DNA of 64,000 nt from Guyparkeria halophila. Lineage in GTDB: Bacteria > Pseudomonadota > Gammaproteobacteria > Halothiobacillales > Halothiobacillaceae. Position 1 is the first letter of the stretch. Each line of letters starts with the position of its first letter. The notes beneath the pieces are model-generated. The model did no database searches and had not been told where the DNA came from. It worked only from the letters and a program-made list of their open reading frames with translations. Below, piece after piece: positions 989 to 3,495 of the stretch. Location: the NCBI RefSeq assembly GCF_034479635.1, contig NZ_CP140153.1:317501-381500 (forward strand), given 5' to 3'. Made by a program: the position numbers and the translations under genes.

Positions 989-1481
989 CGCCGACACGTC
1001 CAATCTGCCGACCATCGGCAAGGACTCCGAGGTGACGATCCACTACGAGATTCGGTTGCCGGACGACCGGGTGGTGGATAGCAGCTTCGATGACGAGCCA
1101 CTGACCGTCACGCTGGGGAGCGGGGCCTTCGAGCCGCGCCTCGAGGAGGCGCTGGTGGGCCTGCCGCTGGGCGAGTACACCCGCATCCTGCTCACCCCGC
1201 AGTACGCCTTCGGTCAGCCGGACGCGAGCAACGTCCATACCATGCCGCGCGGCCGGTTCCCGGAAGACATGAACCTCGAGCCCCAGCTGGTGGTCGAGTT
1301 CGACCTGCCCAACGGCGAGTCGGTGCCGGGCACCGTCACGGCCCTCACCGAGGATGCCGTGACGGTGGATTTCAATCACCCGCTCGCCGGGCAGAACATC
1401 CAGTTGATCGTCAAGGTGCTGGCCATCGACGGCACGCCGGCACCGGCCGACTCACCCGCCCTGCAGGGGGATGCGCCATGA
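981..1481 (+). CDS. fkpB: FKBP-type peptidyl-prolyl isomerase (SlpA/FkpB type)
   Basis: A 166-aa cytosolic proline isomerase/chaperone of the SlyD-SlpA class. The FKBP fold starts at [19 protein letters not shown] (residues 18-36). An insert-in-flap region follows [17 protein letters not shown], as expected for SlyD-like proteins. It lacks the His-rich SlyD tail and instead ends in a short Pro/Ala-rich tail. The start overlaps the lspA stop and its stop overlaps the ispH start by 4 bp. The ileS-lspA-fkpB-ispH order is conserved in gammaproteobacteria, which supports the name over slyD. Confidence 0.92.
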
Positions 1482-2416
1482 AGATCCAGCTCGCCAATCC
1501 GCGCGGTTTCTGCGCCGGCGTCGACCGGGCGGTGGAAATCGTCGACCGGGCGCTCGATTCCTTCGGCGCGCCCATCTACGTGCGCCACGAGATCGTCCAT
1601 AACCGCTACATCGTCGACAACCTGCGCGACAAGGGGGCGATCTTCATCGAGGACCTGGCCGACGTGCCCGACGGCGCTACCCTGATCTTCTCCGCCCACG
1701 GCGTCTCGAAGGCCATCCAGGATACCGCCGCCGAGCGCGGCCTGACCGTGTTCGATGCGACCTGCCCGCTGGTGACCAAGGTCCACATGGAGGTCGCCCG
1801 CCACGCCCGGGCGGGGCGCGACGTGGTGCTGATCGGTCACGAGGGGCATCCCGAGGTCGAGGGCACCATGGGGCACTTCGATCCGGCATTCGGTGGGCAG
1901 ATCCACCTGGTCGAGAAGATCGCGGATGTGGAGCATTTGCAGGTCGACAACCCCAAGGGGTTGGCCTGGGCGACCCAGACCACGCTATCGGTCGACGAGA
2001 CCCGTGCGATCATCGGCGCACTGCAGGCGCGCTTTTCCCAGATCGAGGGGCCGCGCAAGGACGACATCTGCTACGCCACGCAGAACCGTCAGGACGCCGT
2101 GCGCGAGCTGGCCGAAAGCTGCGACATGGTGCTGGTGGTGGGCTCGAAGACCAGCTCGAACTCCAATCGCCTGCGTGAGCTGGCCGAGCAGTCCGGCACG
2201 CCCGCGCACCTGATCGACGCGGCGGCCGACATCGACCCGGCCTGGTTCGACGATTGCAGCCGGGTGGGCGTGACCGCCGGGGCATCGGCCCCCGAGATCC
2301 TTGTCCAGCAGGTGCTCGAGCGCCTCAAGCTCGAGTGCAAGGCCACGCTTGAAGAGCGCGAGCCCGCGGTGGTCGAGAACATGGTCTTCCCCATTCCCGT
2401 CGAGCTGCGCAAGTAG
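1478..2416 (+). CDS. ispH: 4-hydroxy-3-methylbut-2-enyl diphosphate reductase
   Basis: A 312-aa iron-sulfur enzyme for the last step of the MEP isoprenoid pathway, giving IPP and DMAPP. The three cluster cysteines are in [13 protein letters not shown] (Cys12), [12 protein letters not shown] (about Cys96) and [12 protein letters not shown] (about Cys197). The SSNSNRL motif and the conserved His/Glu residues of the substrate pocket are also present. The length is typical. It is the last gene of the operon and is followed 31 bp later by a terminator-like hairpin. Confidence 0.96.
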
Positions 2417-2494: not shown

Positions 2495-3076
2495 TCAGGC
2501 CTCAGCCTGCAGGCGGCGACGCACCAGCCGGTGCGACACCAGTCCCCCGAAGGGGATCAGCGCCGCGATCGCGACCACCGCCCCGTGGTGGAGCGGCAGC
2601 AGACGGCGCGTGAGCGTGATGGCCAGCACGGCCATCGTCCACAGGAAAAGCACCCCGTGCACCGGCCCCACGGCGCTGACGGCCTCCGGCATGTCGGCTA
2701 GGGAAGGTCTGCACGAATCCGATGCCACTCTGGCTTGGCGAGTCGTTCGTGATCAAGGCGCGATGTCGCCGGCGTGCGGGTGGCCCCGTCAAGACATCGC
2801 AACGCGGAACACGGGCGACTCGCCAAGCCCCGCCGGGCGCGCCTTGAGCCGGGCATCTGCTGCGTTGTCGTCCTTGGAAAGAGAATGACTCTTCCGCGGC
2901 GGACGAACGCCTTGCGCCTGCCCGGCTCAAGGCACGCAGAGCGGTATCGGATTCGTGCAGACCTTCCCTGGATACTTCAGCGGCATGGCGATCACGACCA
3001 GGGCGATCAACGAGCCGCCCTCGAGCAGCGTCATCCAGCCGAGGTGGCGGAGCGCGGGGTTGGTCTGGTTGGTCAT
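2495..3076 (-). pseudogene. DUF3817-type membrane protein gene interrupted by a MITE
   Basis: The 5' part (3076 down to 2972) encodes 35 residues, ending with AMPLKY. The 3' part (2701 down to 2495) encodes 68 residues beginning LADMPEAV and including GPVHGVLFLW and LIPFGGLVSHR. Together they match the small three-helix DUF3817 membrane family. The 266-bp element at 2702-2967 sits between them and brings a stop 14 codons past the junction. Removing the element and one copy of the 4-bp target duplication restores an uninterrupted 103-codon frame. The 77-aa open frame that starts inside the MITE is therefore only the 3' fragment. The gene lies 53 bp downstream of the ArsR-type regulator and was probably co-transcribed with it. 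Confidence 0.87.
2702..2967. mobile_element. 266-bp MITE, IS5-like ends, inserted in the DUF3817 gene
   Basis: The outermost 22 bp at each end (2702-2723 and 2946-2967) are perfect inverted repeats starting GGAAGGTCTGCACG. Flanking 4-mers CTAG (2698-2701) and CTGG (2968-2971) look like a slightly decayed CTAR target duplication, as made by IS5-group transposases. There is no transposase frame. The interior contains a long imperfect hairpin around GCCTTGAGCCGGGC (from 2841) and GCCCGGCTCAAGGC (to 2936). A related element lies at 31895-32071. Confidence 0.86.
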
Positions 3077-3129: not shown

Positions 3130-3495
3130 CTAGCCTCGTGACGGTCGGCCGACCATCGCCTGCAGGCGGCCGAGATCCTCGACGAAGGTGTCGCCGCTCG
3201 CGTTCCCCTCGAAGGTCGCCTTCAACACGGCACGGGCCCAGGCGGGCAGATCCTCGGCGGCCCGGTAAAACACCCAGGTGCCATCGCGCCGCACGTCAGT
3301 GATCCCGGCATCGCGCAGGTGGGCCAGATGCCTGGAGATCTTCGGCTGGCTCAATGCCAGTGCCTCGGTCAGCTCACAGACACACAACTCACCTTCTCGC
3401 AGCAGCAGCATCAGGCAGCGCAGGCGGGTGGTGTCGCCAAGGGCGCGAAAAAGGGCCTCGGGTGGCATGGCAGTCTCTCTGTTCTCAAATGTCAT
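3130..3495 (-). CDS. ArsR/SmtB-family transcriptional repressor
   Basis: A 121-aa winged-helix regulator. The core reads ALGDTTRLRCLMLLL, then ELCVCELTEALALSQPKISRHLAHLRDAGI, then VRRDGTWVFYR. The ELCVCEL segment is the alpha-3N-type metal-thiolate motif of ArsR and CadC-like sensors, so As(III) or a soft metal is a plausible ligand. Translation may instead start at the internal Met ten codons in (3468), which follows an AGAGAGA stretch. It precedes the MITE-disrupted DUF3817 gene. The upstream DNA (3496-3530) is AT-rich and includes GATAATGATTAAT, a possible operator. Confidence 0.88.
   Translation of the reverse strand: MTFENRETAMPPEALFRALGDTTRLRCLMLLLREGELCVCELTEALALSQPKISRHLAHLRDAGITDVRRDGTWVFYRAAEDLPAWARAVLKATFEGNASGDTFVEDLGRLQAMVGRPSRG

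Follow-up and report, generated by a model that had tools for sequence, protein, structure and literature searches.

Background

An interrupted gene raises the question of what broke it, when it did so and whether the break matters, and this question is asked here of a DUF3817 gene of the sulfur-oxidising bacterium Guyparkeria halophila, lying in a window of 64,000 nucleotides, which is the whole stretch of DNA that was analysed. A preliminary description of the locus, made from the letters alone, had attributed the interruption to a MITE and had proposed a recent movement. We consider it likely that a MITE with IS5-group-like ends inserted in this gene with a 4-bp duplication, and that the gene is very probably non-functional as a result. 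A non-autonomous element would have entered a CTRG target inside the DUF3817 gene and duplicated 4 bp, its movement being presumably driven in trans by a transposase of IS5 type, either lost since or supplied from outside. The loss would have been tolerated, the gene being presumably dispensable, last in its operon and facing a convergent gene that we take to be ispH. The existence of uninterrupted alleles in relatives shows that the element has moved.

Results and discussion

The interrupted gene

The DUF3817 gene (2495-3076, minus strand) is split by a 266-bp element at 2702-2967 (Table 1). When the flanks are joined in silico by removing the element and one 4-bp flank, the frames on both sides match and 103 codons are open, with codon 35 (TAT, Tyr) followed by CTA GCC GAC ATG, exactly as the preliminary description had read them, and the joined product is a full DUF3817 protein (PF12823, E 6.6e-17, 62.5 bits for a Pfam cut-off of 27). 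Three hydrophobic stretches are seen in this product with a simple hydropathy window, which fits a membrane protein, and the break falls between the first and the second of them. The in-frame stop previously placed 14 codons past the junction was also recovered, the unjoined frame running 14 codons beyond Tyr35 and giving a product of 49 aa. The interrupted gene, ended after 49 codons, is very probably non-functional. Its 3' part lies in a 77-aa ORF (2495-2728) that still matches PF12823 (E 3.5e-9, 37.7 bits, cut-off 27) and may be translated from a GTG inside the element. The 4-bp duplication described earlier is present but imperfect, its two copies, CTAG and CTGG, agreeing at three of four bases; the mismatch may be a later change, but most members of the family have inexact duplications.

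Table 1. Features of the interrupted DUF3817 locus, with positions counted from the first letter of the window
Feature	Positions	Strand	Basis or remark
ispH, convergent neighbour (presumed name)	1478..2416	+	beside DUF3817 throughout genus members with the gene
DUF3817 3' part, within codon 37 to stop	2495..2697	-	PF12823 match, in-frame join
Flank CTAG, one copy of imperfect target duplication	2698..2701	.	
266-bp non-autonomous MITE-type element	2702..2967	.	own-genome matches, both ends in at least 27 copies
Left terminal inverted repeat	2702..2732	.	inverted-repeat search
Arm 1, internal inverted repeat 2732-2754 with 2807-2829	2732..2829	.	helices 2-5
Arm 2, internal inverted repeat 2830-2855 with 2919-2944	2830..2944	.	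helices 6-10
Truncated ORF, 49 aa (35 native codons and 14 from junction/element)	2927..3076	-	
Right terminal inverted repeat	2937..2967	.	inverted-repeat search
Flank CTGG, other copy of imperfect target duplication	2968..2971	.	
DUF3817 5' part, codons 1-35	2972..3076	-	relatives align here
arsR-family regulator, upstream of the broken DUF3817 gene	3130..3495	-	Pfam PF01022, E 2e-15

The locus in related genomes

DUF3817 was searched in 115 genomes, of which 29, including the own genome, gave a match. The preliminary description had advised looking for the uninterrupted gene in related genomes, and seven of the ten other Guyparkeria genomes carry it; it is lost in two, and in the remaining one (G009, 85% complete) the locus was not found, with neither DUF3817 nor ispH detected. 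The seven uninterrupted genes are open and free of stops, the matches extending at least from residue 7 to residue 99 of 103. At the target position they have CTGG (three genomes), TTGG (one) or ATGG (three) with no insert, directly after a Tyr codon, or a His codon in one of them. The opposite outcome envisaged beforehand, that close relatives would all carry the element at this site, does not occur: it is present in none of the seven congeners with DUF3817 and was not seen there in any other genome examined.

The immediate context of the gene is conserved in the genus, ispH adjoining DUF3817 in all seven congeners with the gene (ispH matches being 79-97% identical) and an ArsR match lying inside the fetched stretch in five of them; the stretch fetched from G001 stops at a contig end, and the DUF3817 gene of G004 has other neighbours. 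The two genomes that lost the gene, G005 and G006 (both 99% complete), have ispH and arsR as direct neighbours and no match to DUF3817. The gap between these two genes occupies L113 2416-2590 in G005 and L114 2434-2480 in G006. A 3' remnant of the gene was suspected in G005, with a match too weak to be claimed.

The ArsR-DUF3817 pairing looks like a trait of the genus, none of 21 loci from other genera having an ArsR or IspH match beside DUF3817 within the stretches fetched (up to about 1.5 kb per side). The question raised earlier, whether losing the partner of the ArsR regulator matters, looks minor in view of these loci and of the two congeners that keep arsR without DUF3817. In the open-access literature searched, five papers mention DUF3817, none of them in the title or abstract.

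Age and consequence of the insertion

Compared with five relatives, the joined halves of the window gene give dN/dS values of 0.09-0.16, the relatives giving 0.06-0.16 among themselves. Both halves appear to be still under ordinary purifying selection, with no decay visible over this short gene, and because dN/dS is unrelaxed in both, the insertion probably dates from late in the history of the species. Recent movement had previously been suggested on account of the near-identical ends of the element, an argument that does not hold. Of the 25 pairs formed by the ends of the window copy one is non-Watson-Crick, and no more than one such pair is present in 22 of 69 copies. Nine copies whose sites are shared between species, with 1 to 5 of these pairs, are matched about as well, so that end similarity is ruled out as a clock for dating the insertion.

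As far as gene content can indicate, the DUF3817 gene is dispensable, since it is interrupted here and gone in two congeners. No further gene is expected to suffer a polar effect, DUF3817 coming second after arsR and facing the convergent ispH.

Anatomy and distribution of the element

The window element has the features by which a MITE is recognised: it is short, bounded by terminal inverted repeats, repeated in multiple copies and associated at family level with a target duplication, and it has no transposase gene, for which its 266 bp are too small. Its ends are GGAANNTCTGCACGAAT. The inverted repeat that was found is 33 nt long and 94% complementary (2700-2732 with 2937-2969), taking in two flanking bases per side, and the last bases of arm 2 overlap the right end repeat. 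CTAG being self-complementary, the 4-bp flanks could be thought to belong to the inverted repeat; this was rejected because exact non-palindromic duplications (CAAG, TTAT, CTTG, CTGG) occur in the family.

In the genome of G. halophila both ends could be recognised, with up to 3 mismatches per end, in at least 27 copies, 18 of them measuring 265-269 bp and the 9 others 55 to 332 bp; the search of this genome gave at least 42 match rows, some of which are reverse matches of ends. These copy counts are lower bounds, part of the candidates having been scored, and the set of 85 elements used below excludes own-genome matches without two recognised ends (L013, L019, L027, L033, L038 to L041). Family matches are present in 10 of the 11 genus genomes, the best outside the own genome being 94% identical to the window copy, and none was obtained in G004 (64% complete). 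Weak matches were found in G021 and G103. In a sample of 369 genomes of the class, an exact end occurs in nine, of which G000, G001 and G172 alone exceed one per strand. The last, apparently a MAG and placed in another family of the class, has 14 exact ends on the forward and 10 on the reverse strand, and its 265-bp copy is predicted to form the same three stems as the family (-188.1 kcal/mol). Another copy of G172, of 338 bp (L177 1501-1838), runs opposite to the aligned copies and has one arm about 70 bp larger.

One short own-genome copy of 92 bp (L025 442-533, genome 1904991-1905082) occupies the site that holds a 266-bp copy in G002 (L131), and is for this reason most simply explained by an internal deletion in place. 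G010 has two adjacent copies of like orientation (L086 1229-1766), with TTAT on either side of each.

In 20 of 84 elements the same 4-mer stands on both sides, whereas 2000 shuffles gave on average 4.3 such elements and never more than 13. The 84 include two G010 elements entered twice, so that distinct elements number 82 and exact duplications among them 18; the shuffles were run on the 84 only. An exact 4-bp duplication is absent in the 64 other members. The commonest left flanks are CTAG (16), TTAG (8), TTAA (6) and TTAT (5) among the 84. At family level, these flanks point to an IS5-group-like target duplication of 4 bp and of CTAG/YTAR type.

The search for a mobiliser

Profile searches of the own genome found neither PF01609 nor PF05598. 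Among the 11 genus genomes, PF13546 and PF13586 were found in none, and PF01609, which we take to be an IS5-type transposase domain, only in G002, in an insertion sequence that is IS4-like by eye and whose ends are unrelated to those of the element, for which it was discarded as mobiliser. G172 has no PF01609 match. In G021, which belongs to another genus of the same family, the single PF01609 gene is preceded by CTAG and GGAACCTCTGATTGAAT, the latter being identical to the CC-type end of the element at 14 of 17 bases. Since the three transposase domains searched across the genus gave a single match, with unrelated ends, the mobiliser appears to be missing or of another type; the best reading would be that of an IS5-group MITE whose enzyme is now absent or came from outside.

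Candidate partners were also sought elsewhere. Long pairs of ends in L185 and L196, considered as an autonomous partner, contain no transposase-like ORF by eye and look like chance matches. A viral partner was rejected as well: in the best 80 of 94 viral-contig stretches with one end, one second end was found, 851 bp away, with three mismatches and unlike flanks. Searching phages and plasmids with the whole element returned partial matches only, none of the matches listed covering more than 18% of the query.

Plasmids of Cupriavidus (L181 3001-3162) and Diaphorobacter (L182 3001-3163) carry palindromic elements of 162-163 bp whose ends are GGACCCTCTGCACGAATCGATC and whose flanks are CTAA/CTAG and TTAA/TTGA; they lie near IS481 and IS66 transposase genes. 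Forty plasmid records are similar to this element, those of Cupriavidus and Diaphorobacter alone covering most of it, and it is perhaps a betaproteobacterial cousin of the family.

A predicted fold with paired changes

The predicted fold of the window copy reaches -184.5 kcal/mol for 266 nt (raw value), and the predicted family fold consists of three stems, namely an end stem, arm 1 and arm 2. It was followed in an alignment (A1) of 69 distinct full-length copies, retained from the 85 elements (71 full length, two duplicates dropped), in which standard pairs fill 96.6% of the cells. Changes on both sides affect 57 of 84 pairs and amount to 531 cells, against 131 in shuffles, which ignore relatedness, and 40-76 in slid versions, which keep relatedness but favour a structure drawn from the same alignment.

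The end stem and the arms differ in the manner in which these changes are distributed. Between copies at different sites with 7-9% divergence (139 comparisons, not independent), the end stem has 314 paired changes, 198 one-sided ones and 24 double changes without pairing; the paired and one-sided counts are 85 and 107 at 5-7% divergence, and 7 and 30 at 3-5%. At the same site in different species, one change is paired and nine are one-sided, over six comparisons that are few and share copies, two of them having been called same-site from flanks and not from blast. In the inner arms, the corresponding paired and one-sided counts are 68 and 624 between sites at 7-9%, and 7 and 26 in the six same-site comparisons. 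These counts, with few same-site cases among them, suggest that movement of a copy may renew or require the pairing of its ends; for the arms they lend this no support. Fast repair between the two ends after insertion is not favoured, same-site copies changing on one side.

Whether one strand is preferred was assessed with a strand-neutral count over 53 Watson-Crick pairs, which gave 63 G-T and 44 A-C cells. By region (covering 48 of the 53 pairs), G-T and A-C cells number 19 and 20 in the end stem, 36 and 13 in arm 1, and 4 and 9 in arm 2; counting the mismatches bridged within helices brings a further 123 G-T and 3 A-C cells, almost all of them from two pairs of arm 1 that are fixed as G-U. 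The absence of a G-T excess over A-C in the end stem and arm 2 speaks against selection on a one-strand RNA in these regions, such selection being conceivable at most in arm 1.

Conserved, weakly paired blocks are observed in both arms, AAGGCG and CAACGC in arm 1 (A1 columns 56-61 and 102-107), GCGTTG and CGCCTT in arm 2 (columns 171-176 and 223-228). The blocks of one arm are complementary to those of the other and could pair across the arms.

Alternative readings and significance

REPINs, thought to be moved by RAYT enzymes, offer a model for another reading of the paired changes, in which movement depends on the fold, above all on the two ends pairing in single-stranded or cruciform DNA, and is carried out by some enzyme outside the DDE transposases of IS5 type; paired changes would then accumulate as only copies with matching ends move. 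The excess of double changes over shuffles agrees with it, as do the end-stem changes that are often paired between sites at 7-9% and one-sided at the same site, the absence of a suitable transposase (PF01609, PF13546, PF13586) in the genus and the frequency of compensatory changes in REPINs (PMC3116915). We nevertheless hold it to be unlikely, for 4-bp duplications together with conserved ends are typical of DDE transposases, MITEPsy1 has an IS5-family relative (PMC3189936), the inner arms show no contrast between different and shared sites, the end stem at 3-5% divergence changes mostly on one side, and the same-site comparisons are few with shared copies. It is likewise improbable that this is a self-folding family in which mutual pairing of the ends, beyond their core sequence, would be required for movement, and which would have persisted across the genus, and in a MAG placed outside its family, with no resident IS5-type transposase found. 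The fold could also be kept by a function of the transcribed RNA, in processing, stability or termination, where the element lies within a transcript, and the energy of the window copy and the surplus of G-T over A-C cells in arm 1, bridged mismatches included, would accord with this; we find it distinctly unlikely, the end stem and arm 2 limiting any one-strand preference to arm 1 at most, and an Rfam search returning a single chance-level match (E 0.52).

The last alternative concerns the gene rather than the element, and supposes that its short products are functional, either as a 49-aa N-terminal peptide or as a 77-aa C-terminal ORF starting inside the element. Both halves retain open frames and low dN/dS, and the longer ORF passes the DUF3817 cut-off (37.7 against 27 bits), but a young insertion predicts low dN/dS equally, all seven congeners with the gene are without insert, no conserved short form was seen and the gene is gone in two other congeners, which leaves this possibility very remote. 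The insertion of an IS5-group-like MITE in a gene that very probably no longer works stays the reading we prefer.

A MITE breaking a dispensable gene is ordinary; a family that covaries and is apparently orphan is more interesting. Its full-length copies near 266 bp, its stems that stay paired as the sequence changes and the complete genomes available for the genus make it a natural case in which to ask whether folding affects how a MITE moves. Should pairing of the ends prove important, REPINs would be joined by an element that has terminal repeats and target duplications and that likewise needs structure.

Comparison with known elements

The closest element found in the open-access literature is MITEPsy1 of Pseudomonas syringae, which has GGAAGGTCTGAAAAAGCC as its left end, creates duplications of CTAG or YTAA and has been captured while transposing (PMC3189936). 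Its left end starts with GGAAGGTCTG, the ten leading bases being identical to those of the window element, and like the present family it is non-coding, occurs in several copies per genome and makes a 4-nt duplication of CTAG/YTAA type (PMC3189936). The right end, GTATCCTCTGAAAAAGCC, starting with GTATCCTCTG, is less like that of the window element, and the whole is 100 nt long, whereas the latter reaches 266 bp with two internal hairpin arms (PMC3189936). The genome of MITEPsy1 also has an IS5-family relative, ISPsy2 (PMC3189936); the searches of Guyparkeria found none.

Chunjie, a 235-bp MITE of Geobacter uraniireducens with 37 further copies of 178-235 bp and conserved ends, likewise has one copy that disrupts an operon, the likeness to the window element being one of description only (PMC10969869). 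QMITE1 and QMITE2 of Coxiella burnetii are likewise predicted to fold very stably (examples at -192.7 and -113.1 kcal/mol) and differ by their direct repeats of 2-4 bp and 7-9 bp (PMC5896051). Two long arms are also predicted in the CIR repeats of Caulobacter and Brucella, which however are about 110 bp long, have a linker between the arms and are listed in the review with no terminal inverted repeat and with an unknown duplication (PMC2229807). REPINs differ in their association with RAYT tyrosine transposases and in having REP sequences at their borders, with no 4-bp duplication described in the portion of the source drawn upon; like the family of G. halophila, they are mobile palindromes in which compensatory changes across the hairpin are common (PMC3116915).
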